A DNA stretch of 64,000 nt from Methanosalsum zhilinae DSM 4017 (GTDB lineage: Archaea; Halobacteriota; Methanosarcinia; Methanosarcinales; Methanosarcinaceae). The position numbers and the translations under genes are program-made. This document shows, piece after piece, positions 25,777-44,879 of this stretch; the stretch's first letter is position 1; the number at the start of each line of letters is the position of its first letter. Under the pieces are notes generated by a model. It was not told the origin of the DNA and ran no database searches. It saw only the letters and a program-made list of their open reading frames with translations. The stretch spans positions 186,001-250,000 of the forward strand of contig NC_015676.1 of assembly GCF_000217995.1 (NCBI RefSeq), given 5' to 3'.

Positions 25777-28700
25777 ATGGATTTGTCAGGTTCATCGCAC
25801 ATTCCATGTGAAAATGAGATTATCAAGCATCTGTCCAGTATTTCAGACGGACGAATTCCAGATACCTTTTTTTGTTCCCTTCTGGATAGTGACAGCTTTC
25901 ATTCAGTGACACATAGTAACAGATTTCAAAACCTTCTGTTTGAAATATTCGGATCACTCTCAGCTGGTCCTCCGGTAAATTTTGACAGAATAAGAGCAGA
26001 GATCCCGGAGAATGATATGGTGGCTTCTGTCCAGAATGTAGATTCAGGGGTCGCAGTTGAACATACAGGTCACTGGAATGTACTCAGAAATAATGATGGA
26101 TGGGAACTGATCCGAATTTATACTGGAAGCAGTGATATAGTAGTTAGGTTTGAGGAGCTGGCATGTGATGTTCTGGAAGAATTCTGTGAAGAGTGCCGTG
26201 AGTTCAGGCTTATCATACTCAGAGGTATGGGGCCCAGGGTATTCATGGATCATGATAGGGCAATACTTTATGCTGATCTCTTGGCAATGGCTGATGAGAT
26301 ATATCTAAAATACTGTCTCAGGAGGGAACTCCATCTCTGGAAATATCCTTCCAGTAACCTGAAAGATGCAATAATGGATTCATTGAAATGGGTGAGGTCA
26401 ATAGGCAGGTCACTGGATATTTTCTTTGAAACACTGTCCATTGTATATGGAGTGGAGTGCAGTACCGGAAGCGATGATGATACAATAGCAGATTCCATCA
26501 TCTCCAGGTTTTACAGCCAGGGTACTGACAGAAAAATTGCAGGCAGAATCCACTATTGCCCGGATGAGACTGGCCAGCCATGGATTATAATGGATTCACA
26601 GGTCAGATATCCATTAAGCACCAAGATCCCTGATATAGATTGCCTGAACTCTGTCAGGAAATGGACCTCCCGGGGTCTTGATATTATCCATGAGATGATC
26701 CGGGCCAGATCACTTGGAGAAAATGTTTTGCTTATAGGTGATGCAGGTACAGGTAAGGACTGGCTTGCAATGATGTATGGCAGAATCATGGGAGAAGATC
26801 CCATTGTTGTGTCTCTGTCAGAGGATATGGAGGGCCAGGAGCTGATAGCCTCCAGAGGTCTGGAAGCAGGGCTGACGGTCTGGGAATACAGTCAGATCGT
26901 GAATGCCTATGTGAACGGCAGGATCATTATCCTGGATGAGGTAAACAAGACCAGGCCAGGTGTATGTGCAATCCTGAATGAAATAATGGAAGCTCCTGAG
27001 CTTGAGATGCCTGACGGCAGCTGGGTCAGCCGGTGTGAGGGTTTCCAGATCATTGCCACCATGAATGAGGCTGGAGAGGAATACGGGGGATATGATATTG
27101 ACCCGGATTTCCGGGACCGATTCGCAACCCTTATCCAGGTTGATGAACTGGATAAAAATCAGAGAATAGAATTTCTCAGGAAGGTATCCCATAGCATTGT
27201 ACCCCGCAAATTCATAGAGGATCTGATTTCCCTCCAGGACACTATCAATAACAGTGGCCAGGTATGGAGAAAGATGTCACTCAGGGTTCTGGAACGGATC
27301 ATAGAGGCCAGAAGAAGATATCCTGCAGAATCCCTTGCCTCACTCATAAGTTCTGAATATATGATCGGCAACTGGGAAAAAGGTCACGGTTTTGTTAACA
27401 GTGAGGTCCAGGGATTTGCTACAGATATGGAACGCAATTTCAGGTCATCAATTCTGTTTTCCTTCAGAAGGGGTCAGAATGTCAGGGACCCTTCGGGACA
27501 GAGGGAGTTGAGGGTGGTGCTTGTCGAGGGCAGGGTATGGCTCTGCTGTAAATGTCCAGACGGAATACAGGCTGAACCTCTTTCAGGTCCCATTCATCCT
27601 GTCAGTACAGTTAATGTCTCCACAGACCAGAATATGATACTTGCCATAGCAGGCAGTCAGATATGGGTCTGGTACACTGTGGACGGAGTTATATGGATCG
27701 CAGAGGGAATTGATCTCTCAGATCCTGCATCACCGCAATGTTCTGGTTCAACTACAGATCTCAGTAATCCAATAAATATCGGCTCTCAAACAGCATCAAC
27801 CCTGCCTGCTCCCATCCTGAAGAACAGTTCTCTGGTAAGTGGCAGTATCAGAATTCCTGCAGGCAATGAATCCGATGATTGTCCAGGTCCGGTATATGGA
27901 TATTATGAAAAGGAAACTCCTACTGGTAACAGAATTCTTCATCAGGTACTGCTGGGTCTGTCCATGGACCGCAATGTGCTGCTGGTGGGACCTGTGGGTA
28001 CAGGAAAGAGCTGGCTGAGCAAGGCTGTTTTCCGGATGCTTGAGAAGAAAGTGGAGCATATGTCACTGCATGAGGGTACCACTGTACAGGATCTTATGGT
28101 CTGGCAGAAGACGGTACGGGTGAAGGATGAACTCTCCCTTGAACTTGAACTCTCGCCTCTGGTACGGGCTGCTGTTGAGGGCAGGCCATGTATTGTGGAT
28201 GAGGTGAACAGGGCATCTGCGGGTGTGCTGGCAGTACTGAATCATATTCTGCAATTCAGGGAGGTCATTCTACCAAAAAGGATCCAGATAGATGGAAAGT
28301 TAACTGACAGGCTCCGGGTCAGGCAAGGGTTCAACCTGATAATGACAATGAACCCGCCCCAGCAGCACCTTGAGGTGAACCGGATGCTTGCTGATTTTAT
28401 GGACCGCATGTATTGTGTCCGGGTTGATCATCTGCCACCGGATGAGGAGCTTGGAATGCTTAAGATGATATGGGAACATGCAGGCGGCCTGGTGGATGGT
28501 TCTGTTGAAAGGGATCTGGAAATCCTTGTACGCATTGCTTCTGAGACCCGCAAGGAGGCTGAGGAGTATATAAGGCCCATCAGCACCAGGGCGCTTGAGA
28601 GAATGGTACACTTTAGACAGAAATACCCTGATCATCAATGGGCTGACATTCTGTGTATGATGACAGGTATTGAAGGTGCTGTGGATCAAAAAAGAAGACA

Positions 28701-31700
28701 GAGATTTTATGGATACTGGAATGATGGTAGTGGCTGCAGTCTGCCTCAATCCGGATCCTGTTCCATCAGTATCAGTGATGATTCAGAGGAAGCTGAAATA
28801 GGTGGCATAAGATGGGGCAGGAAGAATGCGGATATCTGTAGCAGGTACTTTGGTGGAATTGATCAGAATGATCGTATCATTGAGCTGATGACAAAAATGC
28901 GTGACATGGAGTCCCATGTGCTTCTTGTTGGAGAAGCGGGTACTGGCAAGGACTGGCTTGCCCTTGCCTATGGCGAGCTTATGGGTGAGGAACCTGTGGT
29001 GGTCTCACTGTCAGAGGAGGTGGAGGGCCAGGAACTGATCGCATCCAGAGGACTTGAGGAAGGGATCACGGTCTGGGAATACAGTCATATTGTAGAAGCC
29101 TATGAAAGGGGCGAGATTATAATTATTGATGAGGTGACCCGTACCAGACCGGGTGTTCGTGCAATTCTCAATGAGATCATGGAATCTCCTGAACTTGAAA
29201 TGCCTGATGGCAGGTGGGTCCAGAGGGGTGAGGGTTTCCAGATAATTGCTACCATGAATGAGGTTAAGGAAGGATATGAGGGCTATGAGCTTGGCGAGGA
29301 CTTTGAGGACAGGTTTGGTGCTATTATTGAGGTACAGGAACTGGCAAAGACTGAAAAGATGAATTTTTTAAGAAGAGTGGCCCAGGGAAGGCTGCCGGAT
29401 ACAACCCTGTCCCAGCTCATCGATTTTCAGGAAGAGGTGAATTCCAGCAGTGATGTATGGAGAAAACTGTCCCTCAGGGTCCTTGAGAGAATTGTTGAAA
29501 TGAAGACAGAGTATCCGGATGAGAGAATTGGTGATATTATACTCTCAGAGTTTATGATAGGGGAGTGGGAAAGTGGAAGAGGTACTGTTGAAAAGATGAT
29601 AGCAGCACTGCCTGAAGAGCTGGCAGGAAGAAGTGACTGGACAATTGGCAACAGTATTGAATATCCAGGATCACAGGCATTGGAAATGTCATTTTCTGAT
29701 GATGGCCATATTCTTGCTGTTCTGGACCGCTCGGGATCTGTATATGTATCCAGGATCCATCCTGGAAAACAGATGCAATGGCAGAAACTTGAAAGAGATT
29801 CTGATTATAAGGACTCTCTGATACTTTCTGGTAACGGGGACTTTATCGCAGTAAAAGGAGAGTACAGGGCTGCTGATATCTGGCAGAAATGTGGTGAATC
29901 CTGGAAGAGAGTAGATGTATCCATGGAACACGCAGGAAGAATTTCAGGGATATATCCTGCCTATGATGGACGCTGTTTTTTTGTAGTTACTTACAGGGGA
30001 GCGGTACTTGTATGGACCAGGGATGAACACGCAAACTTTGAAGGAGAGGGTGTACTGCTAAAGGAAGAGGGTACCAGGATCAGATTTGGTTCTCTTGCGG
30101 GAGACAGTGAGGTGTTTGCTGCAGGAGATGATGAGGGTACTGTCAGAGTCTGGTACAGGTCCAGAGAAGGTGACTTTTCAGCAGATTATATGGAATCAGC
30201 CAGACCAGGGGATGTCATGACAGCAGGCAGCTGGTCACCGGATTTACAGGTTCTTGCATGTGCAGGACTTTCAGGCAATGTATATGTGATGTATAGAAAA
30301 AAAGATTGCAGCCATGGTGAATGGAAGCGACTGGAGGGGCCAGGACAGGATATGGTGTTCTGCTCATGGTCTGGAAATGGTGATTATCTTATTGCAGGTG
30401 GTGGCAGGGGAGAGATTTTCCTCTGGTGCAGGTATGATCTGGTCAATATCCCTGGAAAGAGACTTGAAGGGCCTTCAGGGGATCTCACACAGTGTACCCG
30501 GTCTGCAGATTCATCAACCATTGCAGCCACCGGCCATGATTATAAGGTCTATTTATGGGGTGTAAAATCAGGATCCTGTGAAGTTGTTGCCAGTGAACTT
30601 AAAGTATCTGATAACCTGCAGAGAATGCAGAGGATATGGCTGTCTGAAAACGGGCAGTATCTTATAGGACACTCCATGAATGGGGGCATCTATATGTGGT
30701 CCAGGTCGGTTCACAGTGGCTGGAGACCTGAGTACAGCAGATTGTCCTGTGCAGGTGAATGCAGTGAATTCCTGAGCTGTGAATACTTGAAAGAGCATGT
30801 TTTTGCAGCAGATGAGAGTGGTGGTCTGTACCAGTGGACACTTCCTTCCCGGGGTCTAGATGTTCTGGAATCTGCTCTGGAAAACGCTGAACAGGAGAGT
30901 CTTGCTCCGGAGATTGGTAATGACCTGCTGGTTAGTGGCAGTGTGAGCCTTGAGAGAGAATCCAGAGAACAGGATGATAAAGCTACATTTGATTATTTAT
31001 CAAAACAAACTCCTTCAAATGACCGGACCCTGCACAGGATCATGATGGGACTTGCACTGAATCGCAATATTCTTCTGGTGGGTCCTGTGGGATCAGGTAA
31101 GAGCTGGATTGCCAAGTCAGTTTTCGGTTTGCTCAACAAGAGGATTGAGCACATGTCCCTGCACGAGGGTTCTACAGAGCTTGATCTTACTGCCTGGCAG
31201 AAAACTGAGAGACGGGGTCGGGATATATCCCTGGAGATGGAAATCTCACCTCTTGTAAGAGCTGCTATAGATGGCAGACCCTGTGTAATTGAGGGGGTTA
31301 ATCGAATCTCCTCAGGTGTTCTGGCAGTGCTCAACCATGCCCTGCAGTTTAAGGAGATAATTCTTCCAAAGCGTATCAGGATAGGTTCTGAAATGACTGA
31401 TACCATAAAGGCAGAAGAGGGATTCCAGCTGGTTATGACCGCCATTCCTCCTGGAGGCCTTGTGGATGTAAATCCTTTCATGGCGGATTTTATGGACCGA
31501 ATGTTCACAGTTGAGGTTGATTACCTGCCACCATCAGAGGAGGCAGGGCTGCTGGAAGGTATCTGGCACAATGAAAGTAATGAACAGGTTGATCCCGGGA
31601 CAGGCAGAATGATCAGGGAGCTTGTGGAAATGGCTGATCGCAGACGCAGGCTTGCCCGCCAGAACTTCAGGCGTACCATTACCACAAGGACACTTGAGAG

Positions 31701-34700
31701 GGTTATCAGGTTCAGACAGAAATATCCTGGAATCCACTGGATGGACATACTTGGCATGATGTGCGGTGTTGAGGGTGCTGTGGACCAGGAGCAGATAAGG
31801 GTGTGGAAGATCGGATGGGAGGCAAAGTTTGGAGAGCAGGATCAGCTGCTCCCTGCACCGTTGATCGTCCTGCACAGTGACAGAAACAGGGTGACCATAG
31901 GTGATCTTACCTGGCAGCGAATGGATACTGATGTAGAGTGCAGATATATTGAGGGAATTGATCAGAATGACCGTATCATTGAGCTGATGGCAAAGATGCG
32001 TGACATGCAGTCCCATGTGCTTCTTGTTGGAGAAGCGGGTACAGGCAAGGACTGGCTTGCCCTTGCCTATGGCGAGCTCATGGGTGAGGAACCTGTGGTG
32101 GTTTCACTGTCAGAGGAGGTGGAGGGGCAGGACCTGATAGCAATGAGAGGCTTAAGAGCAGGCATTACTGTCTGGGAATACAGTCATATTGTGGATGCTT
32201 ATGAGAATGGCAGGATCGTTATTCTGGATGAGGTGACCCGTGCAAGACCAGGAGTTCGTGCAATTCTCAATGAGATCATGGAAGCTGAAAGGCTTGAGAT
32301 GCCTGACGGCAGGTGGATCCAGAGGGCGGAGGGTTTCCAGATCATTGCCACCATGAATGAGGTCAAGGAAGGATATGAGGGCTATGAGCTTGGCGAGGAT
32401 TTTGAGGACAGGTTCGGTGCTATTGTTGAGGTACAGGAACTTCCGGAATCTGAGAAGAGAAAGTTTCTTGAACGGGTTTCCAGGGACAGGGTTAACAGTG
32501 GAATACTGGACTCTCTTTTAAAGCTTCAGGAAACTGTGAATTCAGAGGAGACTGTATGGCGGAGAATGTCCCAGAGAGTACTGGAGCGGATTGTGGAAGA
32601 TATTGCCAGATATCCTGATGAACCGCCTGAAGACATTATTCATTCTGAATTCATGCTGGGTGAATGGGAGGAGGGGTACGGATATGTTGTGGATGCAGTA
32701 GAATCAATGGTTTGCAGTCTCGGGAATGTACGGGTTAATGGTAATAAATCTAAAAAACCGTCTCCTGTATACATAGATGACCTGCTGGTCAGCGGAGATG
32801 TCCGGCTGAAGGTGGGCAGTGAGCCTGATACCTGCCCTGACCCTGAATATGAATATCATGATAAACAGACCCCTTCCAATGATCGTGTTCTGCACAGGAT
32901 ACTGCTGGGCATTTCAATGAACCGCAATGTGCTCCTGATAGGGCCTTCAGGATGCGGAAAGAGCTGGATGACCCGGGCTGTGTTCAGGCTTTTGAGAACC
33001 AAGATTGAACATATGTCTCTGCATGAGGCAACAACAGTACAGGATCTGACTGTCTGGCAGAAGACTGTGAGAAGAAAGGGTGAGATGTTTATAGAACTTG
33101 AACTATCGCCTCTGGTACGGGCTGCTGTTGAGGGCAGGCCGTGTGTTGTGGATGATGTGAACAGGGCATCTCCCGGCGTGCTGGCAGTTCTCAACCATGC
33201 CCTGCAGTTTAAGGAGATTGTGCTTCCCAGAGGGATTGAGGTATCAGATGCTGGTATTCCTTCAGGAAGGGATGTGCGCAAAATCAGGGCAAAGGAAGGA
33301 TTCCAGCTGATAATGACTGCAAATGTACCGGAGGATGGCAGTGGTGTGAACCAGATGATGGCTGATTTTATGGATCGGATGTATTCTGTTGACATGCATT
33401 ATCTGCCACAGTGTGAGGAAACGGATCTCATGATGGCAATCCTGGGTTTTGAGGACAGAAATATGCGCAATGAACTTGAGCTTCTGGTTGATTTTGTGAA
33501 TTATCTTAGAGAAAGTGGTGAAGGTCCCACTTTCAGGAGCATGGAGAGAATTGTAGAAAACCTGAGGACCTATCCATACCAGGATATCAGGTTGCTTCTT
33601 GAACGTGAACTGAGAATCGGGTTCAGGTCTGAGGAGGAACAGGAGATGTTTACAGAGTTTATGGAATCATGTAATCTGGATAGGGCTCTCAGGTCTGTGT
33701 ATGAAAATCCAGTATCTGGCTGTACATGGAATGAGCTTATCTATCACGCTTTTGATATTTCACTACCAGTGTCCATGGATGACCTGAATTCATATGATCC
33801 TGCAAGATGGTGGGAAGCAGGAGATCCTGATGATTATCAGCAGGCAAGGGCAAGGAAGAGGTACAGGATACTTGTGAAACTGCTGCACATGGTCACAGGA
33901 CTTGATATTTCCCTGAATCCCTGGTCAAAGGCCAGGGTTTTAGATAAAGATAAGCCTTCATGGGGTTGTGTTTTTGATCGACGGTCCAGGATGGTGAAGG
34001 AGGTATTTTTCTCACCATGGGATATTATTTACAGGGAAGATGAGCAGAGTCTGTACGGACTGCTGTTCCATGAGATATTTGAGATACTCTACCGCAGGCC
34101 GGCTGCATTTGATGAAGAGTTTCTATCAAAACCTGGTGCCAATGCTCTTATCAATGGTATAGGTGATATCTGGATAAATCGCAGGGGTATGAGTGAGTTT
34201 CCTGGAACCAGAAAATGGATAATGGCACTCTACAGGCAGAGTATGGATTCAGGAGAATATCCTGCTCTGGCCTATCTCCAGTTCATTTCTGCAGTTGTGT
34301 ATGAATGGATATTCCAGGAGAGGGATCCCAGGGTAGCTGACAGGGATGTTATCAATGCACTTGATTCTCTGAGGGAGACTTTTGAGAGAATATACAGTAC
34401 AGACAGTGAAGATGAATATATCAGCCTGATTCACCGGCTTTACAGTTGCAGGGATTTCCAGTACCTTGTAGAGAAATCGGTTGAGGAGAAGGTCAGAATG
34501 CAGGGAATTGATCTCTGGGCCGGTGACTGGAAGATGGCTGGAGGTGTCAGAGAGGATCTTTTAAGGAGTGCAGCTGCCGGAATGGTTGAGCAGGAGAGGA
34601 CAGGTGGTAAAGCTGTGGATGAGAATGGAAGACAGCTCAACCAGAAGGAACTTGAGGAGCTTCGCAGGGCTTTGCTGGAATCTGTGAGGGCAGCCAGGGA

Positions 34701-35562
34701 AGAGCTTGAGCGCCTTGACGAGGAGAGGGAACAGGAACGTGTGGAGGCTGAACTTAAGAGGGCTGAGATTGCAAGGGAGGAGAGGGAACTTGAAGGAATC
34801 TCTGAGAAGGAGCAGCAGGAGTATTCTCTAAGATATGAGAAGGTTTCGGAACATATCAAGCAGATGAGGGAGAGATTCAGGGAGATATACAGGCATGAGA
34901 GGGGTGTTTGGAAGCGCCGACTGTCCAGGGGCAGACTTGACAGTACACAGCTTGCGTCCCTTGTTGCAGGAGATGACCGGGTGTTCATGAAACGGGAACA
35001 GCCTGAGAGGTATATGGTCCGGATTTCTCTGCTGGTGGATCAGAGTGCCAGCATGCAGGGTGAGAAGATCGATCATGTGGCTGATGCTGTCCTGATGCTG
35101 CTGGCTGCTATACAGAGGGATCAGAGAAAGGGAGTTCAGGTGGAGGTTGTGGGATTTCATGATGACAGTCCAATGGAGATATATCTTAAGTATGGTGAGA
35201 AGATCACCAAGAAAAAGATTATCAGGGTTGTCAATCAGGTGGCAGGGACAATGGGTCGAAACAATGACCTGCAGGCAATATACTATGCCTTTGAGAGGAT
35301 CCCTTCTGCAAGTAAAAGGGCCCTGAACCTTATCATCCACTTCTCTGATGGTGATCCCAACCAGCAGTTCGATCGTGACCAGTTCAGGGATCTTATTAAC
35401 AGAAATCCCCATATCAACGTCGTTGGGTTTGGGATTGGAGGTGAGGGTGCTGATTTTGTACTGGACCTGTATCCTGAGGGCCAGGCAGCAACTGCTGATA
35501 ATGCTTCTGAGATACCTGAGAAGCTCAGCTCACTCATACAGGGATATGTGAGAAGACGCTGA
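25777..35562 (+). CDS. Giant midasin-like protein: six AAA+ modules, WD40-type insert, metallopeptidase-like segment, VWA
   Basis: 3261 residues in one uninterrupted frame. Order: unique N-terminus (1-290); AAA1 (Walker A Lys327, Walker B D387-E388); short beta insert (~560-650); AAA2 (K744, D808-E809); AAA3 (K1058, D1118-E1119); about nine WD40-type repeats (1288-1691); AAA4 (K1775, Walker B changed to E1839-G1840); AAA5 (K2091, D2151-E2152); AAA6 (K2395, D2459-D2460); a region with HEIFE (H2765) and GDIWIN (D2797); charged coiled coil (~2950-3045); VWA domain with MIDAS D3088-x-S-x-S and FSDGD. AAA1, 3 and 5 are one family (GTGKDW, EGQ[ED]LIA, NEIME); AAA2, 4 and 6 another (GKSW, SLHE, SPLVRAA, VLNH). 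Six AAA+ units plus a C-terminal VWA is the midasin plan, and MoxR-VWA pairs do similar remodelling in prokaryotes. No signal peptide, so it should be cytoplasmic. Function and client unknown. Confidence 0.9.
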   Translation: MDLSGSSHIPCENEIIKHLSSISDGRIPDTFFCSLLDSDSFHSVTHSNRFQNLLFEIFGSLSAGPPVNFDRIRAEIPENDMVASVQNVDSGVAVEHTGHWNVLRNNDGWELIRIYTGSSDIVVRFEELACDVLEEFCEECREFRLIILRGMGPRVFMDHDRAILYADLLAMADEIYLKYCLRRELHLWKYPSSNLKDAIMDSLKWVRSIGRSLDIFFETLSIVYGVECSTGSDDDTIADSIISRFYSQGTDRKIAGRIHYCPDETGQPWIIMDSQVRYPLSTKIPDIDCLNSVRKWTSRGLDIIHEMIRARSLGENVLLIGDAGTGKDWLAMMYGRIMGEDPIVVSLSEDMEGQELIASRGLEAGLTVWEYSQIVNAYVNGRIIILDEVNKTRPGVCAILNEIMEAPELEMPDGSWVSRCEGFQIIATMNEAGEEYGGYDIDPDFRDRFATLIQVDELDKNQRIEFLRKVSHSIVPRKFIEDLISLQDTINNSGQVWRKMSLRVLERIIEARRRYPAESLASLISSEYMIGNWEKGHGFVNSEVQGFATDMERNFRSSILFSFRRGQNVRDPSGQRELRVVLVEGRVWLCCKCPDGIQAEPLSGPIHPVSTVNVSTDQNMILAIAGSQIWVWYTVDGVIWIAEGIDLSDPASPQCSGSTTDLSNPINIGSQTASTLPAPILKNSSLVSGSIRIPAGNESDDCPGPVYGYYEKETPTGNRILHQVLLGLSMDRNVLLVGPVGTGKSWLSKAVFRMLEKKVEHMSLHEGTTVQDLMVWQKTVRVKDELSLELELSPLVRAAVEGRPCIVDEVNRASAGVLAVLNHILQFREVILPKRIQIDGKLTDRLRVRQGFNLIMTMNPPQQHLEVNRMLADFMDRMYCVRVDHLPPDEELGMLKMIWEHAGGLVDGSVERDLEILVRIASETRKEAEEYIRPISTRALERMVHFRQKYPDHQWADILCMMTGIEGAVDQKRRQRFYGYWNDGSGCSLPQSGSCSISISDDSEEAEIGGIRWGRKNADICSRYFGGIDQNDRIIELMTKMRDMESHVLLVGEAGTGKDWLALAYGELMGEEPVVVSLSEEVEGQELIASRGLEEGITVWEYSHIVEAYERGEIIIIDEVTRTRPGVRAILNEIMESPELEMPDGRWVQRGEGFQIIATMNEVKEGYEGYELGEDFEDRFGAIIEVQELAKTEKMNFLRRVAQGRLPDTTLSQLIDFQEEVNSSSDVWRKLSLRVLERIVEMKTEYPDERIGDIILSEFMIGEWESGRGTVEKMIAALPEELAGRSDWTIGNSIEYPGSQALEMSFSDDGHILAVLDRSGSVYVSRIHPGKQMQWQKLERDSDYKDSLILSGNGDFIAVKGEYRAADIWQKCGESWKRVDVSMEHAGRISGIYPAYDGRCFFVVTYRGAVLVWTRDEHANFEGEGVLLKEEGTRIRFGSLAGDSEVFAAGDDEGTVRVWYRSREGDFSADYMESARPGDVMTAGSWSPDLQVLACAGLSGNVYVMYRKKDCSHGEWKRLEGPGQDMVFCSWSGNGDYLIAGGGRGEIFLWCRYDLVNIPGKRLEGPSGDLTQCTRSADSSTIAATGHDYKVYLWGVKSGSCEVVASELKVSDNLQRMQRIWLSENGQYLIGHSMNGGIYMWSRSVHSGWRPEYSRLSCAGECSEFLSCEYLKEHVFAADESGGLYQWTLPSRGLDVLESALENAEQESLAPEIGNDLLVSGSVSLERESREQDDKATFDYLSKQTPSNDRTLHRIMMGLALNRNILLVGPVGSGKSWIAKSVFGLLNKRIEHMSLHEGSTELDLTAWQKTERRGRDISLEMEISPLVRAAIDGRPCVIEGVNRISSGVLAVLNHALQFKEIILPKRIRIGSEMTDTIKAEEGFQLVMTAIPPGGLVDVNPFMADFMDRMFTVEVDYLPPSEEAGLLEGIWHNESNEQVDPGTGRMIRELVEMADRRRRLARQNFRRTITTRTLERVIRFRQKYPGIHWMDILGMMCGVEGAVDQEQIRVWKIGWEAKFGEQDQLLPAPLIVLHSDRNRVTIGDLTWQRMDTDVECRYIEGIDQNDRIIELMAKMRDMQSHVLLVGEAGTGKDWLALAYGELMGEEPVVVSLSEEVEGQDLIAMRGLRAGITVWEYSHIVDAYENGRIVILDEVTRARPGVRAILNEIMEAERLEMPDGRWIQRAEGFQIIATMNEVKEGYEGYELGEDFEDRFGAIVEVQELPESEKRKFLERVSRDRVNSGILDSLLKLQETVNSEETVWRRMSQRVLERIVEDIARYPDEPPEDIIHSEFMLGEWEEGYGYVVDAVESMVCSLGNVRVNGNKSKKPSPVYIDDLLVSGDVRLKVGSEPDTCPDPEYEYHDKQTPSNDRVLHRILLGISMNRNVLLIGPSGCGKSWMTRAVFRLLRTKIEHMSLHEATTVQDLTVWQKTVRRKGEMFIELELSPLVRAAVEGRPCVVDDVNRASPGVLAVLNHALQFKEIVLPRGIEVSDAGIPSGRDVRKIRAKEGFQLIMTANVPEDGSGVNQMMADFMDRMYSVDMHYLPQCEETDLMMAILGFEDRNMRNELELLVDFVNYLRESGEGPTFRSMERIVENLRTYPYQDIRLLLERELRIGFRSEEEQEMFTEFMESCNLDRALRSVYENPVSGCTWNELIYHAFDISLPVSMDDLNSYDPARWWEAGDPDDYQQARARKRYRILVKLLHMVTGLDISLNPWSKARVLDKDKPSWGCVFDRRSRMVKEVFFSPWDIIYREDEQSLYGLLFHEIFEILYRRPAAFDEEFLSKPGANALINGIGDIWINRRGMSEFPGTRKWIMALYRQSMDSGEYPALAYLQFISAVVYEWIFQERDPRVADRDVINALDSLRETFERIYSTDSEDEYISLIHRLYSCRDFQYLVEKSVEEKVRMQGIDLWAGDWKMAGGVREDLLRSAAAGMVEQERTGGKAVDENGRQLNQKELEELRRALLESVRAAREELERLDEEREQERVEAELKRAEIAREERELEGISEKEQQEYSLRYEKVSEHIKQMRERFREIYRHERGVWKRRLSRGRLDSTQLASLVAGDDRVFMKREQPERYMVRISLLVDQSASMQGEKIDHVADAVLMLLAAIQRDQRKGVQVEVVGFHDDSPMEIYLKYGEKITKKKIIRVVNQVAGTMGRNNDLQAIYYAFERIPSASKRALNLIIHFSDGDPNQQFDRDQFRDLINRNPHINVVGFGIGGEGADFVLDLYPEGQAATADNASEIPEKLSSLIQGYVRRR

Positions 35563-35882: not shown

Positions 35883-36023
35883 ATGGTGCATATATGTCCA
35901 AGGTGTGGTGGCAGGATGAATCGCTGGAGACTTCCTCTGGTGAGAAGAACAGATATGATGCAGAAGAAGAATATTATCTACAAATGCCTGTCATGCGGTT
36001 ATGAGCAGGAATTTTTTGAGTGA
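35883..36023 (+). CDS. 46-residue zinc-ribbon protein
   Basis: ATG 35883 to TGA 36021-36023. CPRCG (residues 5-9) and CLSCG (residues 35-39) are 25 residues apart, the geometry of a single zinc ribbon; between them lies a basic stretch (RWRLPLVRRTD). AAGTGAT precedes the start as a weak ribosome-binding site. Likely a small nucleic-acid- or protein-binding adaptor. An overlapping frame from ATG 35879 is open but shows no motif. Its neighbours are the candidate RNA upstream and a convergent KaiC-like gene 18 bp downstream. Confidence 0.65.
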   Translation: MVHICPRCGGRMNRWRLPLVRRTDMMQKKNIIYKCLSCGYEQEFFE

Positions 36024-37386: not shown

Positions 37387-39867
37387 ATGAAAAAAATAGC
37401 AATTACGCTGGTTGCCCTGATGCTCATGTCACTGTTTGTGGCTGGCTTTGCCAACGCAGACAATGACTATCTTGAAGAACTTGAGATCAGGGGACCCGCC
37501 TGGAATTTAACAGGCGCAGATGCAAATGAAATATTCGTCGCGAATGCAACTAATTTTGCTGGCTTCTGGTATGATATCGATGATGATGAATCCAGTGAAG
37601 AACTCTGGATATATAAGAACAGAACTACAGCCAGAACTCTGGGTGATGACCCAAGTGCTGTAGAATATATATCCACTGTAGTCCCAGGAATAAAACCTGA
37701 ATTTGATTTCAGGGATCCTGACAACGCATCTGAATTATTTACATATGAAAAAATCGGATTCCTTGCAGAGGAATATGTTCCAATTGCACAGGGACAGACC
37801 GACAAGCTATCAAAACTTTTGATGGACTCTGATACAAGGTACACTCTGCGTACAGGTCAGACACTGGAACTTGCAGATGGCTATGCAATCACACCACTGC
37901 AGATCGATGTAGATGGTAACAAGGTCTGGCTTGAATTGACAAAAGACGGTGAATTCCTTGATGATAAGATCATTGATGTAAGGTCAGCTACAGGTGCTCA
38001 GGCAAGTCAGGCCAAACAGGACCGTACCTGGTACTATGAACAGGACATAATGGATGAGGATGATATTCTCACACTGATGGTTCATGTAGAACAGGTCTTC
38101 CAGGGTACTGTTGACAGTCTTGTTGTAATTGAGGGTATCTGGCAGATCGAAGATGATGGTCTTGAACTTGAAACAGGTGACAGATTCGGTAGAATGGAAA
38201 TTGATGATGTTGGTGACAATGTAATAAGAATGGCACTTGATACAACCATCACACTCAGACGTGACAGTACCCAGCACCTTATGCAGGATCTGTACTTTAG
38301 AGTCGCAGACGATGCTGCCAACATTAGATTCTACCTGATGCAGCGTATCACAGAGCCTGGTACCTATGAGGTCAGAGGAACAGTTGCAAATGTAACTGCA
38401 ACAGAATGGTTCAACTGGACTGCAACTGGATTTGATGTTGCGGGTCTGGAAGGTATGGTGACTGAAGGTTATTCATTTGCTGGTTTCTGGTATGATCTGG
38501 ATGAAGATCTGCATTCAGAACTTCTGGCAGTTCATGTCGATGACAGAACCCTCCGTGCAGATGATGATGAAGTGGTCTACTATTCCAGAATACAGGAAGG
38601 TCTGGACCCTGAATTTGATTTCAGAGACCCTGACAACGCAACTGAACCGTTCAAATATGAGAAAATCGGATTCCTTGCAGATGAATATGTTCCAATTATT
38701 CCAGGACAGACCGACAAGCTATCAAAACTTTTGATGGATTCTGATACAAGGTACACTCTGCGTACAGGTCAGACACTGGAACTTGCAGATGGCTATGCAA
38801 TTACACCACTTCAGATTGATGTAGATGGTAACAAGGTCTGGCTTGAACTTACCAAAGACGGTGATTTCCTTGATGATAAGATCATTGATGTAAGGTCAGC
38901 TACAGGTGCTCAGGCAAGTCAGGCCAAACAGGACCGTACATGGTACTATGAACAGGACATAATGGATGAAGATGATGTTCTCACACTGATAGTTCATGTA
39001 GAACAGGTCTTCCAGGGTACTATTGACAGCCTTGTTGTGATCGAAGGTATCTGGCAGATTGAGGACGATGGTCTTGAACTTGAAACAGGTGATAGATTCG
39101 GTAGAATGGAAGTTGATGCTGTTGGTGACGATGAAATCAGAATGACACTGGATTCCAACATCAACCTGAGAAGAGACAGCACCCAGCATGTAATGGGCAA
39201 CATCTACTTCAAGGTTGCAGATTCTCCTGACATCAGATTCTACCCATTCGTGGAGAGAACTGTAGGCGAACCGGTAGTACCTGTTGACGAAGAACCAGTT
39301 GCAGCATTTACTGCAAATCCAACAAGAGGTGTTGCACCACTGACTGTAACCTTCACTGACCAGTCAGAGTATGCAGTGAACTATCTCTGGGACTTTGGAG
39401 ATGGTACAACCTCAACTGATCCAAGCCCAACCCATACCTATGAGGAAATTGGTACATACACTGTCACACTGACAGTTACCAATGATGTAGGCGAGGACAG
39501 TGCAGAGAGGACAATCACAGTTACTGAGGAAGAGATCCTTGAACCTGTAGCTGCCTTTACAGCACAGCCACAGGAAGGAGAAGCTCCACTTACTGTGACC
39601 TTCACTGACCAGTCTGAGCATGCAGTAAGCTACCAGTGGGACTTTGGTGATGGTACAACCTCAACCGATGCAAGCCCAACCCATACCTATGAAGAGGCAG
39701 GCGAGTACACTGTCACACTGACCGTTGAGAACGAGATCGGTGAAACAGATTCTGCACAGAGGACAATCACAGTCCAGGAGCCAGAACCAACACCCGGCTT
39801 TGAGATCGTGTTTGCCATTGCAGGAATTCTGGCAGTTGCCTTCCTTGTGAAAAGGTACAGAAAATAA
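37387..39867 (+). CDS. S-layer protein 1: tandem S-layer domains, two PKD domains, PGF-CTERM
   Basis: 826 residues. Signal peptide ([20 protein letters not shown]...A, cleavage near residue 24); two copies of the Methanosarcinales S-layer domain (about 30-330 and 335-635), each with [10 protein letters not shown]- or [10 protein letters not shown]-like, [12 protein letters not shown] or KIGFLADEYVPI, and VEQVFQGT motifs; two PKD domains (~640-720 and 722-800, WDFGDGTTSTD); and a tail TPGFEIVFAIAGILAVAFL followed by KRYRK, a PGF-CTERM sorting signal for archaeosortase and lipid attachment (family knowledge). It forms or decorates the surface lattice. AT-rich leader and strong terminators frame it as a monocistronic unit. 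Confidence 0.94.
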   Translation: MKKIAITLVALMLMSLFVAGFANADNDYLEELEIRGPAWNLTGADANEIFVANATNFAGFWYDIDDDESSEELWIYKNRTTARTLGDDPSAVEYISTVVPGIKPEFDFRDPDNASELFTYEKIGFLAEEYVPIAQGQTDKLSKLLMDSDTRYTLRTGQTLELADGYAITPLQIDVDGNKVWLELTKDGEFLDDKIIDVRSATGAQASQAKQDRTWYYEQDIMDEDDILTLMVHVEQVFQGTVDSLVVIEGIWQIEDDGLELETGDRFGRMEIDDVGDNVIRMALDTTITLRRDSTQHLMQDLYFRVADDAANIRFYLMQRITEPGTYEVRGTVANVTATEWFNWTATGFDVAGLEGMVTEGYSFAGFWYDLDEDLHSELLAVHVDDRTLRADDDEVVYYSRIQEGLDPEFDFRDPDNATEPFKYEKIGFLADEYVPIIPGQTDKLSKLLMDSDTRYTLRTGQTLELADGYAITPLQIDVDGNKVWLELTKDGDFLDDKIIDVRSATGAQASQAKQDRTWYYEQDIMDEDDVLTLIVHVEQVFQGTIDSLVVIEGIWQIEDDGLELETGDRFGRMEVDAVGDDEIRMTLDSNINLRRDSTQHVMGNIYFKVADSPDIRFYPFVERTVGEPVVPVDEEPVAAFTANPTRGVAPLTVTFTDQSEYAVNYLWDFGDGTTSTDPSPTHTYEEIGTYTVTLTVTNDVGEDSAERTITVTEEEILEPVAAFTAQPQEGEAPLTVTFTDQSEHAVSYQWDFGDGTTSTDASPTHTYEEAGEYTVTLTVENEIGETDSAQRTITVQEPEPTPGFEIVFAIAGILAVAFLVKRYRK

Positions 39868-39876
39868 ACTAAATTC

Positions 39877-39925
39877 GGATGAATGATTCATCCTGAAGGG
39901 ATAATAAATCCCTTCAATTTTTTTT
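39877..39925 (+). terminator. Double hairpin terminator after S-layer gene 1
   Basis: GGATGAAT-G-ATTCATCC (39877-39893) is followed by GAAGGGAT (39895-39902), loop, ATCCCTTC (39908-39915) and eight T. The second is a perfect intrinsic-type terminator. Confidence 0.75.
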
Positions 39926-40423
39926 AATAAACTTTTCTTATTATATTCCAATCAGATTCTAATCTACATCTTCAGGTTTAATATCCTGAAAGATCAATAG
40001 TTTGAATAAAATATCCATTGGTTCTGATATCTCCGAATTTGCATATTCCTGCTGAAATATGGTAGATCGGTTTTTGAGATATTATTGCATTCTCATTTTA
40101 AGCTGTAATCTACATGATAAATCTATTATTGGTTCATATTTAATTCTAAGTTCCTTTTTATGTTCAATAAATGCTTATTTTTTGAAAATAAGATTAATTT
40201 TGGGCGTAAAATACTTTTAATACGAATCAGTTATTCCGATATTTGTGTGGTTCAAGTTCAGGGAAGGTGGTATCAATAAGTGAAATCTGCGATACGGGAG
40301 AGATATCTTAGCAACATCAACTGCGACAGAAAACTGTTGCAGGCTGATCGAGAAAAAGGCAAGACTGAGATGTAGCCATGTACATAACATGGGTAATGAG
40401 AGTAATGCCGGAGGTGTTTGTAT
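39926..40423 (+). other. Gene-free leader region of the small PGF-CTERM gene
   Basis: AT-rich and without ORFs at first. A TATA-like ACTTTTAATA lies near 40212-40222, so the following gene has a leader of ~180 nt, as the S-layer genes do, but without their conserved element. The hairpin CCATGT-ACATA-ACATGG (40376-40392) stands just before the ribosome-binding site GGAGGTG (40410-40416) and could influence translation. Confidence 0.4.
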
Positions 40424-40663
40424 ATGAAGAAAATGTTTAAAATGACACTTGCAGTACTGCTGGTCCTTATTGCAGCAGCCGGTACTGCTGCAGCAATAGA
40501 TGGCGAGGTTCCCCAGGCCCAGGACGATTTCGAGGATGACCTGATGGATCCTGAAGATATGCTGGGGGATGAAGAAATCCCTGAACAGCCTGGCTTTGGT
40601 GTAATAGTTGCCATCATGGGATTGTTTGCAGCAGCAGTACCGGCTGCACTCAGGCGCCGTTAA
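40424..40663 (+). CDS. Small secreted acidic protein with PGF-CTERM tail
   Basis: 79 residues. Signal peptide MKKMFKMTLAVLLVLIAAAGTAAA, then only ~32 residues, strongly acidic (DDFEDDLMDPEDMLGDEE), then PGFGVIVAIMGLFAAAVPAA and RRR, a PGF-CTERM sorting tail. After signal and sorting processing hardly more than an anionic peptide linked to the membrane lipid would remain. GGAGGTG at 40410-40416 fixes ATG 40424. Function unknown; its position between two S-layer genes suggests an envelope role. Confidence 0.8.
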   Translation: MKKMFKMTLAVLLVLIAAAGTAAAIDGEVPQAQDDFEDDLMDPEDMLGDEEIPEQPGFGVIVAIMGLFAAAVPAALRRR

Positions 40664-40745
40664 GGTCAGCCTGGACAGAACTGCCAGATGAAAAGTCAAA
40701 TATAAATCCTACCCCCGTCCCTCCTTTTTTTGTGGGCTGAACAGA

Positions 40746-40787
40746 CCGGTCAGTTTTTCCAAAGTTTACTGACTGGCTCTTTTTTTA
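40746..40787 (+). terminator. Terminator after the small PGF-CTERM gene
   Basis: CCGGTCAGT (40746-40754) pairs with ACTGACTGG (40768-40776), nine pairs with one G-U, followed by seven T at 40781-40787. Confidence 0.65.
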
Positions 40788-41196
40788 ATACCATTCAGTA
40801 ACCATCAATTAGCATTTTCACCTGCGCATCAAATTCACTGCGATTTTGCCAGAACTATTTTGTTGAACTAAGAATGCTGCTCATTTTGTACCTATCGTCG
40901 AACAGGCCTGAAAATATGCTGCAGAAAGAAACTCTGCGGTTTATGCTTATTTGCAGATCCTTATTGATGTATATCCCACCTCAAAAAATCACAGATCATA
41001 ATCCAATTTGCAACTTTACTGTTAGTCCTATTTTTTTGCTTCCTGTACCCATTTTGAATAAGTTAAAATAAAGCTGAAAAGATGAATATAGGTTAATTTA
41101 TGACTCTTATTCAATTTATACAAAATAATCTGCATGATAACGTTATTATGGGTAATATTTCAATCAATAAACCTTCTATAAGTATATTTAGGCACA
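40788..41196. other. AT-rich gap before S-layer gene 2
   Basis: About 400 bp with no convincing ORF, repeat or RNA. It may hold upstream activator sites for the promoter that begins at 41197. Confidence 0.4.
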
Positions 41197-41342
41197 TGTC
41201 GATAAAAATAACGTTTTTTAACGCTAAAAATGACAAAATAAGCTCAAATAGACCACAAAAGATTTAAAAATCGACCTAATAAATGGATACATTGCAAATC
41301 CAATATGACGGGATTAGGAGGGTGAAGATGTCCTTTCGGTAG
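41197..41342 (+). promoter_or_regulatory. S-layer gene 2 promoter, leader element and mini-ORF
   Basis: TGTCGATAAAAATAACG at 41197, GACCACAAAAGATTTAA (BRE/TATA) at 41251-41267 and CAATATGACGGGATT at 41301-41315 repeat the set before S-layer gene 1. Directly after it AGGAGGGTGA (41316-41325) leads to ATG 41328 and a four-codon frame, Met-Ser-Phe-Arg-stop (41328-41342). The rest of the ~187-nt leader carries no longer ORF. Confidence 0.7.
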
Positions 41343-41487
41343 CAGACATCTGTGACCGGAAGATCAGATTGCGCCTCCAGGCGCTTTAAAATCATATTTT
41401 AATCTCACCAAAACTCCGAAACGCAACCACATAAAAACGAAAATAAAACAAAACTATTCCCAAAAAATAACGGAGGAAAAATTAAAA

Positions 41488-44160
41488 ATGAGAAAATTAG
41501 CAATCACACTGGTTGCCCTGATGCTCATGTCACTGTTTGCAGTCGGCGCCGCCACAGCAAACAACGACGATTACGTCGACGAACTTGAGATCAGAGGACC
41601 GGTATGGGACTTTACATTAACTATAGAAGAAGTTGATGCTCCAAACAACAATACAACTTTGAAAACATTTGGTGATTGGAGAGATCTTAAAATAGATTCG
41701 GACACATTCAATACTAGTGCAAATTTTAATGTCTCCGGTGAACTGTTTTCAGGAACTGAGTTAGATGCAGCGCAAGTGGAAAATAATGTGACAAACATGA
41801 CACTTGTCGCAGATGCACAGAACTTCGCTGGCTTTTGGTATGATATAGATGATGGTCTTTCCAGTGAGACTCTGACACTTTATGTCAACAAAACTAGCGG
41901 TGACAGGACACTTGATGATGACGACTCAGATGTTCTTGTCTATGAATCAAATGTACAGGGTGTAAATGCTACATTTGAATTTAATGGGAATGTATACCAA
42001 TATCCAAAAATTGGATTCCTTGCAGAAGAATATGTACCTGTTGAGTCAGATGGACCCCTTGTAGAATATGATGGACAAGGTGTCTTCGGTGATGTAGACA
42101 AACTGAGCAGACTTCTCATGGACACTGATGACAGCTGGACTCTCAGAGTTGGTGAGACTCTGGATCTTGAAGATGGCTACGCCATTGAACCACAGCAGAT
42201 TGATGTTGAAGGTGATAAGGTATGGCTTGAACTCACAAAAGATGGAGAGTACGTTGATGATGAAATCATTGATGTAAGTGATAGCAACGACACTACCTGG
42301 TTCTATGATCAGACAGTACTTGACGAAGATGATGTCGTTACACTTGCAATAAGTGTAGATCAGGTCTTCCAGGGAACTGTTGACAGTCTTGTTGTCATTG
42401 AGGGTGTATGGCAGATTGCTGATGATGGTCTAGAAATTGAAACTGATGACACATTTGGAAACATGGCAATTGAATCTACATCTGATGCCCAAATAATAAT
42501 GGAACTTGACTCTTCCATAACACTTAGACATGATACTACAAGAAATGTCATGGAAGATCTCAAGTTCAGAATGGCTGATGACAGTGATGTCCTCAGATTT
42601 TATCTGATGCAGGAAGTCACAGAACCTGGAATTCATGAGGTAAGAGGTACTGTAGTTGACTTAGAGAAAGATGGTGGCTACTATCAAGATGCTGTAAGCT
42701 GGACTGCAACTGGATTTGATGTTCCAGACCTTGAGGAAGGTGTAGCTCCTGAAGGATTCTCATTTGCAGGATTCTATTACGACCTTGATGACAACCTGCA
42801 CTCAGAAATGCTTACAATAGTTGAAGTTGAACGGTCACTGAGTGACACAAGCGCAAGCGATAATCCTGGCATTGAATATTACAGCCAGCCACAGATAGTA
42901 GAATCAACTTTTGACTTTGATGGTGAAGAGCGCTACTATCCAAAGATCGGATTCCTTGCAGAGGAATACGTGCCTGTTTCAGATGAACTGCTGACAACTG
43001 AAGAAGCTGAACTGGAAGGAACATCTGTAGACAAACTGAGCAAACTGCTCATGGACACAGATGACAGCTGGACTCTCAGAGTCGGTCAGACACTGGACCT
43101 TGAAGATGGCTATGCCATAACACCACAGCAGATTGATGTTGACGGTGACAAGGTCTGGCTTGAACTGACCAAGGACGGTGAATATGTTGATGATCAGATA
43201 ATTGAGGTTGGAGATGAATCCACCTGGTTCTATGATCAGACAGTCCTTGATGAGGAAGATGTTACAACACTTGCAATAGATGTTGATCAGGTCTTCCAGG
43301 GAACTGTTGACAGCCTTGTAGTAATTGAAGGTGCCTGGCAGATTGCAGACGATGGTATGGAACTTGAAACAGACGACGCATTCGGCAAGATGGTAGTAGA
43401 GAGTGCAGATGACAATATTGTAATGACACTTGACACATCACTCACACTCAGAGCCGACAGCACACAGCATCTGATGGGCGACATCTACTTTAGAGTCTCT
43501 GATTATTCAGACTTTGAAACAGATGCAAGATTCTACCCATTCGTTGAGAGAACAGTCGGCGAACCTGTGGAGCCTGTTGAGGAAGAGCCTGTAGCATCCT
43601 TTACAGCAAACCCAACAAGTGGTGCTGCACCACTGGAAGTGGCATTCACTGATCAGTCAGAATATGCAGTTGACTACAGCTGGGACTTTGGAGACGGTGA
43701 GACCTCAACCGAGGCAAGTCCAACCCATACCTATGAAGAAATTGGTACCTACACTGTCACACTGACAGTTTCCAATGAAATAGGTGAGGATACTGCAGAG
43801 ACCACAATCTCAGTCACAGAGGAAGAGATCCTTCCACCGGTAGCTGCCTTTGATGCACAGCCACTGGAAGGAGAAGTTCCACTGACTGTGACATTCACTG
43901 ATCAGTCAGAGAATGCAGTAGCCTATGAATGGGACTTTGGAGATGGCACAACCTCAACCGATGCAACTCCAACCCATACCTATGAAGAGGCAGGCGAGTA
44001 CACTGTTACACTGACCGTTGAAAACGAACTCGGTGAGACAGATACTGCCCAGACCACCATCACTGCAACTGAACCAGAGCCAACACCAGGCTTTGAAGCA
44101 ATCTTTGCAATTGCAGGAATTCTGGCAGTCGCCTTCCTTGCAAGAAGGTACAGAAAATAA
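41488..44160 (+). CDS. S-layer protein 2: tandem S-layer domains, two PKD domains, PGF-CTERM
   Basis: 890 residues. Same plan as protein 1: signal peptide ending near residue 25, two S-layer domains (~30-385 and ~390-695, each with [12 protein letters not shown] and the VDQVFQGT strand), two PKD domains (WDFGDGETSTE and WDFGDGTTSTD), and the tail [20 protein letters not shown] plus RRYRK. It is larger mainly by an insertion of ~40 residues early in domain 1 (TIEEVDAPNNNTTLKTFGDW). Strongly acidic. CGGAGGAAAA precedes the ATG. Confidence 0.94.
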   Translation: MRKLAITLVALMLMSLFAVGAATANNDDYVDELEIRGPVWDFTLTIEEVDAPNNNTTLKTFGDWRDLKIDSDTFNTSANFNVSGELFSGTELDAAQVENNVTNMTLVADAQNFAGFWYDIDDGLSSETLTLYVNKTSGDRTLDDDDSDVLVYESNVQGVNATFEFNGNVYQYPKIGFLAEEYVPVESDGPLVEYDGQGVFGDVDKLSRLLMDTDDSWTLRVGETLDLEDGYAIEPQQIDVEGDKVWLELTKDGEYVDDEIIDVSDSNDTTWFYDQTVLDEDDVVTLAISVDQVFQGTVDSLVVIEGVWQIADDGLEIETDDTFGNMAIESTSDAQIIMELDSSITLRHDTTRNVMEDLKFRMADDSDVLRFYLMQEVTEPGIHEVRGTVVDLEKDGGYYQDAVSWTATGFDVPDLEEGVAPEGFSFAGFYYDLDDNLHSEMLTIVEVERSLSDTSASDNPGIEYYSQPQIVESTFDFDGEERYYPKIGFLAEEYVPVSDELLTTEEAELEGTSVDKLSKLLMDTDDSWTLRVGQTLDLEDGYAITPQQIDVDGDKVWLELTKDGEYVDDQIIEVGDESTWFYDQTVLDEEDVTTLAIDVDQVFQGTVDSLVVIEGAWQIADDGMELETDDAFGKMVVESADDNIVMTLDTSLTLRADSTQHLMGDIYFRVSDYSDFETDARFYPFVERTVGEPVEPVEEEPVASFTANPTSGAAPLEVAFTDQSEYAVDYSWDFGDGETSTEASPTHTYEEIGTYTVTLTVSNEIGEDTAETTISVTEEEILPPVAAFDAQPLEGEVPLTVTFTDQSENAVAYEWDFGDGTTSTDATPTHTYEEAGEYTVTLTVENELGETDTAQTTITATEPEPTPGFEAIFAIAGILAVAFLARRYRK

Positions 44161-44195
44161 GTTAAAAATGTCAGGATTGGATAATGATCCTGTAA

Positions 44196-44241
44196 AGAGA
44201 AGGGTATAACATTATAAACCCTTCTCTAATGCTATTTTTTT
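44196..44241 (+). terminator. Terminator after S-layer gene 2
   Basis: AGAGAAGGGT (44196-44205) and ACCCTTCTCT (44218-44227) form a perfect 10-bp stem followed by seven T. Confidence 0.75.
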
Positions 44242-44598
44242 AAAATAATCTGTTTTTAAATTCTAAAATCATGCGCATTTTAGTTTCTGACTTAAATTTC
44301 TAATTAAACATCTTTTATCCAGTATTCCAGTACATCTACCAAAAACACAACATTATATATAATGCATTAAAGTACTGATATCAGTTCAAATATTGCCAAA
44401 TCTGTACATGGAATCTTTTATCCAGATGATAGTTTCAGAACATAATCACTATCTATCGAACTCATCAAATTCAATTTTATCTGCAACACAAACTCCAAAA
44501 TTTGAAACTTTCTGCAATTTTGTAAGATTCGACAATTTCCAAACAGAATTCTGATCATCATCTTGAGTATAAATACAAAACCCCAAAAATACGTCTTT
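44242..44598. other. Gene-free stretch before S-layer gene 3
   Basis: Some 360 bp of AT-rich DNA without ORFs or clear repeats, ending in the conserved promoter of the next gene. Confidence 0.4.
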
Positions 44599-44744
44599 TG
44601 CCGTAAAAATAATCGTTATTTGTCTCCAAAATCCGGGAAAAATCTCCAAAGAGACCACAAAAGATTTAATAACCAAATGTGAATCTTTGAAAGATAATCC
44701 AATATGACGGGATTAGGAGGGTGATGATGTCATCCAGGCAATAA
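44599..44744 (+). promoter_or_regulatory. S-layer gene 3 promoter, leader element and mini-ORF
   Basis: TGCCGTAAAAATAATCG at 44599, GACCACAAAAGATTTAA at 44653-44669 and CAATATGACGGGATT at 44700-44714 repeat the set of genes 1 and 2, the first two elements being 54 bp apart as in gene 2. AGGAGGGTGATG follows, then a short frame Met-Met-Ser-Ser-Arg-Gln-stop (44724-44744). Its second Met lies at the same distance (27 nt) from the leader element as the mini-ORF of gene 2. Confidence 0.7.
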
Positions 44745-44879
44745 CCCGAAAAATATTGCCAGGATTTATGATTGCACCACAGTGTGCAACAGATCATATT
44801 TTTCATCTCACCAAAACCACACACACAACAACAAAACAAAAAACGAAACTATTCCCACAAAAAAAGGAGGATAAAAAAT

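Follow-up and report, generated by a model that had tools for sequence, protein, structure and literature searches.

A giant single-chain archaeal protein with six AAA+ modules and a VWA domain that appears to have reached the midasin layout independently

We analyzed a window of 64,000 nucleotides from Methanosalsum zhilinae DSM 4017 (contig NC_015676.1, positions 186,001–250,000), a genome that consists of one contig of 2,138,444 bp (2.14 Mb). Methanosalsum is a genus of salt- and alkali-loving methanogens. The window holds an open reading frame of 3,261 codons (25777–35562, forward strand) with an ATG start, a TGA stop and no internal stops. The giant gene stands alone: the flanking genes, which encode an amidohydrolase and a KaiC-like protein, lie on the opposite strand, and its GC content is 47.6%, compared with 40–45% for most of the neighbors sampled (two of nine are at 47%). 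Directly after it lies a 46-residue open reading frame (35883–36023, forward strand) with two CxxC knuckles (MVHICPRCGGRM...YKCLSCGYEQEFFE), which resembles a zinc ribbon and was not seen in the compared stretches of two relatives. Further downstream are three similar tandem S-layer-type genes (37387–46958; 826, 890 and 728 amino acids), and S-layer-type genes likewise lie beside the KaiC-like gene in sister genera. The features of the giant gene are as follows, with positions given in the window, the AAA+ modules numbered M1 to M6 and G217 denoting a second Methanosalsum species.

25777–35562, forward: giant gene, 3,261 amino acids (open reading frame, orthologs, dN/dS)
25777–26628, forward: N-terminal region, residues 1–284; ~27% identity in G217
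26629–27456, forward: M1, type A; K327; Walker B, sensor 1, arginine finger and sensor 2 intact; AAA_5 E 1e-26
27457–27888, forward: M1–M2 linker, ~144 residues; fast evolving (dN/dS 0.34); no Pfam match
27889–28731, forward: M2, type B; K744; motifs intact; AAA_5 E 3e-25
28834–29646, forward: M3, type A; K1058; motifs intact; 88% DNA identity to M5 over 506 bp
29647–30978, forward: WD40-like beta-propeller between M3 and M4, residues ~1291–1735
30979–31866, forward: M4, type B; K1775; AAA_5 E 8e-18
31285–31302, forward: M4 Walker B, VIEGVN, with sensor 1 (TAI) extending to 31446; both degenerate in both species
31933–32676, forward: M5, type A; K2091; motifs intact; AAA_5 E 1.5e-26
32833–33546, forward: M6, type B; K2395; AAA_5 E 4e-22
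33145–33162, forward: M6 Walker B, VVDDVN; catalytic Glu replaced by Asp in both species
33547–34476, forward: zincin-like region, from alignment with the VWA partners of relatives
34069–34083, forward: HEIFE in place of HExxH, residues 2765–2769; second His lost
34642–34926, forward: putative coiled coil before the VWA domain, residues ~2956–3050; heptad-rich; an AF2 model of low confidence shows long helices
34927–35013, forward: NorD/CobT-like finger segment (GRLDSTQL...RVFMKRE), also conserved in the VWA partners of haloarchaea
35014–35559, forward: VWA domain; VWA E 1.2e-11 when searched as its own piece
35038–35052, 35254–35268 and 35341–35358, forward: MIDAS motifs DQSAS, GRNND and (within the last interval) SDG

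Two further Methanosalsum genomes carry the gene. G217 encodes an ortholog of 3,312 amino acids that is 53% identical over the full length and has all six Walker A sites, and a MAG (G401) carries the gene at ~90% identity, split over two abutting contigs (loci L009 and L010). Comparison of the window with the MAG gives a dN/dS of 0.149 for the whole gene, 0.05–0.13 for the AAA modules and 0.024 for the finger plus VWA domain; the gene is under purifying selection.

A first-pass annotation, made from the letters alone, had proposed six AAA+ modules and a VWA domain in one chain and had suggested a Pfam search as a check. That search bears the proposal out, with scores well beyond chance: the AAA_5 profile, which covers the MoxR/dynein/midasin clade of AAA+ proteins, matched each of six stretches (E 6e-146 for the whole protein and 8e-18 to 1e-26 for single modules), the VWA domain was matched as well, and the Walker A lysines named at residues 327, 744, 1058, 1775, 2091 and 2395 are exact at all six positions. 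Pairwise comparison shows a strict A-B-A-B-A-B alternation, with M1, M3 and M5 forming type A and M2, M4 and M6 type B; identity is 58–77% among A modules, 54–60% among B modules and 27–39% between the types. In a medium-confidence model the B modules have a beta-hairpin where the helix-2 insert is expected, and the A modules are shorter. The fold of a single module matches CbbQ/NorQ at Z 19–20.

The Walker A motif and an arginine of the arginine-finger type (DR[FM]) are kept in six of six modules, as is the sensor-2 arginine in the window protein; these are residues that a ring requires. M4 has lost both the catalytic Walker B glutamate (IEGVN) and the sensor-1 asparagine (TAI), and in M6 aspartate takes the place of the Walker B glutamate (DDVN); in G217, M6 is also without the sensor-1 asparagine. 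The Walker B changes of M4 and M6 are common to both species. Since the glutamate is lost at these two sites, hydrolysis is predicted at M1, M2, M3 and M5, and four of the six ATP sites are thus likely to be competent. In Rea1, AAA6 has no Walker B motif, and only AAA2–AAA5 are needed in Schizosaccharomyces pombe (PMC6920918). The repeats also seem to exchange sequence: M3 and M5 are 88% identical at the DNA level within the window genome, whereas the M3 core is only 68% identical between species, and this greater identity within than between genomes suggests gene conversion between these intragenic repeats.

Outside the AAA modules, the N-terminal region belongs to no known family (no match in Pfam, NCBIfam or PADLOC) and has no similarity to the zincin-like region. 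The propeller matches Beta-prop_THOC3 (E 6e-16) and WD40 (E 4e-10) and has a period of 46 residues; the M1–M2 linker may be what is left of one or two propeller blades. The zincin-like domain appears to be dead: HEIFE stands in all three Methanosalsum sequences where relatives have HEIGH or HELGH. M6 and the VWA domain are separated by only ~490 residues, which comprise the zincin-like region and the coiled coil. The MIDAS, initially described as intact, is so in part, with DxSxS (residues 3088–3092) and SDG (3190–3192) present and asparagine at the position aligned with the MIDAS threonine in both species (GRNND, 3160–3164); because of this replacement, client binding through the MIDAS metal is not assured. 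The C-terminal part has no direct match in the PDB and, among all 238 genomes of the class, matched only the three Methanosalsum genomes.

The long A-B chain was likewise restricted to Methanosalsum among 393 genomes sampled over the phylum, and a scan of public genomes with peptides of the giant protein gave matches in this genus only; one-chain forms may exist in other phyla. Viral contigs contained no relative, and the phage and plasmid matches are to single proteins of the CobS, CobT or MoxR type. Sister genera have the adjoining KaiC-like and S-layer genes and lack the giant gene, so the gene was either gained in Methanosalsum or kept there alone.

Relatives elsewhere in the archaea have these parts distributed over two or three genes, in line with the initial reading of the protein as a fusion of a complete MoxR-VWA machine. 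In haloarchaea, adjacent genes encode a MoxR protein, a VWA protein with HExxH and a HEAT-repeat protein (L024, L027, L044 and L046), the last with a PQQ-type propeller in L024; the finger segment of the giant protein aligns with these relatives whose AAA module is a separate gene. This MoxR, vWA and HEAT triplet seems to be a ternary system that has been described little or not at all. On Halomicrobium plasmids, such triplets (with HELGH in the vWA protein) lie beside Ser/Thr kinase genes. A two-AAA protein of ~1,400 amino acids occurs in eight of 100 genomes of family f15, including G341, and at the loci inspected (L078:4578-12511, L079-L082 and L069:1-7362) it adjoins a VWA protein of ~1,270 amino acids. 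In G341 (L069), the two AAA modules are encoded by different open reading frames that overlap.

Another genus of the phylum (g21, family f6) encodes a HEAT-AAA-AAA protein of ~1,272 amino acids (L021:3551-9884, reverse strand; also L022 and L083-L088). It matches S. pombe midasin at E 9e-112 and has the midasin lid PF17867, which was found in seven g21 genomes but neither in the 386 other sampled genomes nor in 14 control genomes. Its gene adjoins that of a VWA protein with an intact HEIGH motif. We regard this protein as a candidate for a prokaryotic relative of the lineage to which midasin itself belongs.

MoxR, vWA and beta-propeller domains also occur together in subsystem 4 of Kaur et al. 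2020 (PMC7159879), and the giant protein has the same ingredients. It could accordingly be a fused ternary conflict system directed against invaders, in which the propeller or N-terminus senses and the ring sets an NTP-dependent threshold, rather than a housekeeping chaperone. This role is the likeliest of the alternatives, and we still consider it unlikely. The bpMoxR profile (PF20030) is matched weakly, with 46.4 bits summed over the whole chain against a cut-off of 27 bits and only 16–17 bits for single modules; relatives sit on plasmids beside kinases, and the presence of the gene is patchy and genus-specific. However, no effector domain or defense neighbor was seen, the locus has neither a variable third component nor an effector beside it, and PADLOC defense-system models gave nothing specific, the one match being to a generic AAA. 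In addition, the propeller is placed within the AAA array and not C-terminal to the vWA domain, and the gene is kept in three genomes under strong purifying selection and has no hypervariable part.

We return to the reading of the giant protein as a single-chain MoxR-VWA remodeling machine, built by A-B duplication and VWA fusion independently of midasin, which is probably correct. The six modules would close into one asymmetric pseudo-hexameric ring, in effect a covalent trimer of A-B pairs, and the finger before the VWA domain would enter its pore in the manner of NorD and midasin. Turnover of ATP at M1, M2, M3 and M5 would then move or twist the VWA domain, whereas M4 and M6 would only bind ATP or have a structural role. 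The client may be held, or the ring gated, by the propeller and the N-terminal and zincin-like domains. Mechanical unfolding and cofactor insertion, the jobs suggested in the first-pass annotation, are speculative. In the NorQD structures, the finger of the VWA partner sits in the AAA pore and twisting is driven by ATP; their authors presume that AAA-VWA pairs in general, among them midasin, work in this way (PMC13036017). By analogy, this finger-in-pore mode is likely here, given the conserved finger, the strongest constraint on finger plus VWA and the order of the fusion.

Specialization by ring position is typical of one-chain rings, and because the Walker B glutamate is missing from M4 and M6 alone, in both species, we count position-specific site loss in favor of such a ring. 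The 444-residue propeller between M3 and M4 counts against it, as it must loop out of any ring. The locus also offers no operon partner or client that points to a function. Structural models give little guidance on geometry: AF2 alignments were shallow (window and L009/L010 sequences), the model of M4–M6 reached a pLDDT of 60 and a pTM of 0.34 and that of the C-terminal 692 residues a pLDDT of 38, and these low scores make the predicted ring geometry unusable. On midasin, the three modules of M4–M6 superpose at 15 Å rmsd; the top Foldseek matches, dynein and midasin at TM 0.2–0.3, reflect collinear modules without superposition.

Strict alternation of diverged A and B modules is also what tandem D1-D2 AAA proteins display, and two chains could instead form a p97-like double ring, one tier composed of six A modules and the other of six B modules, so that the alternation would mark tiers and not neighbors within one ring. 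The propeller and linkers would give this arrangement the space it needs, and the models do not decide between the two. We nevertheless consider it improbable: the MoxR-clade multi-AAA chains of known structure (dynein and midasin) are single rings, the closest PDB profile match is midasin, the degenerate sites fall at two specific B positions and the VWA finger needs one pore.

The branching of the modules points to how a single-chain ring may have arisen. A and B modules are each monophyletic (support 100/100 and 100/99), and their trees are concordant, A as (M1,(M3,M5)) and B as (M2,(M4,M6)), from which we infer that A-B units were duplicated twice. The ancestor would have been a two-gene system, an A-B chain plus a VWA partner, that underwent two rounds of A-B duplication, with AB1 branching off first, followed by fusion to the VWA gene. 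Modules of the f15 proteins fall in one clade with A and B (98/93), apart from midasin, and AU tests of an f15 module with A or B gave p 0.09–0.15 for all pairings.

The first-pass annotation had left two origins side by side, an independent invention of the midasin layout or kinship with midasin's ancestor; the former is now favored and the latter disfavored by the monophyly of A and B and by AU tests. Descent of the one-chain layout, with the giant protein in or sister to the lineage of eukaryotic midasin, draws on the best PDB match of the full protein (midasin, E 4e-26) and on the shared order of six AAA modules and then VWA. Set against this, AU tests rejected a grouping of A or of B with the whole of midasin (p 0.016 and 0.011, respectively) as well as pairing M1 with AAA1 or M3 with AAA3 (p 1e-5 and 3e-48), values to be read with the long branches, the small sample, the partial midasin sequences taken from PDB alignments and the choice of some tested groups after a first tree. 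The midasin lid AAA_lid_7 (PF17867) has no match in any of the six modules, nor in G000 or G217, the A and B clades record an internal triplication, and the two-AAA protein of g21 is far closer to midasin (E 9e-112). Descent from the midasin lineage is thus very improbable, and the layout looks like an independent invention in which an A-B pair was triplicated and a VWA partner fused. Lastly, an assembly artifact, a chimera or a pseudogene in decay, which the length and repetitiveness of the gene and the near-identity of M3 and M5 might bring to mind and the first of which the initial reading had named as its possible undoing, is refuted by orthologs of the same architecture in the other Methanosalsum genomes and by a dN/dS of ~0.15.

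One-chain AAA+ rings such as dynein and midasin are usually treated as eukaryotic inventions without visible intermediates. On balance, we favor the broader view that an archaeal one-chain AAA+ ring has reinvented the midasin/dynein layout, with hydrolysis lost independently at chosen positions and with stages visible within the phylum: a single-AAA hexamer plus VWA, a two-AAA chain plus VWA, and one chain that combines six AAA modules with VWA. An independent archaeal case whose phylum also contains one- and two-module relatives opens the route from homohexamer to one-chain ring to direct tests, and a smaller model (~3,260 versus ~4,900 residues) may show how a one-chain AAA ring drives an internal VWA domain. 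The literature searched contained no report of a prokaryotic one-chain protein with six AAA modules and VWA, and earlier reports of prokaryotic midasin-like proteins may exist.

Overall, the giant protein is probably a MoxR-VWA machine that converged on the midasin layout. With midasin (Rea1/Mdn1) it shares six AAA_5-type modules followed by VWA/MIDAS in one chain, some modules with a dead Walker B and a likely count of four active sites. It differs from midasin in having no long Rea1-type linker, D/E-rich tail or midasin lid, in adding a WD40-like propeller, a zincin-like domain and strict A-B alternation, and in modules that, by AU tests, are not orthologous to AAA1–AAA6. The NorQ-NorD, CbbQ-CbbO and CobS-CobT systems have the same MoxR-clade AAA fold and a finger before a C-terminal VWA, but they use six copies of one subunit and a separate VWA protein, whereas the giant protein fuses everything and has two module types. 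The ternary systems of Kaur et al. 2020 also bring MoxR, vWA and propeller together; there, these are separate genes, the propeller follows vWA on the C-terminal side and a variable third component is present, in contrast to one chain with the propeller inside the AAA array (M3/M4). Haloarchaeal triplets have one AAA per chain, an intact HELGH motif and HEAT repeats, unlike the giant protein, yet their VWA partner is homologous, with zincin-like domain, coiled coil and finger, and their MoxR AAA is among the nearest sequences. The f15 operon differs in having only two AAA modules, a TPR-like tail and a separate VWA protein in which no HExxH motif was seen, and resembles the giant protein in its two tandem AAA_5 modules of the A/B clade and its VWA partner.
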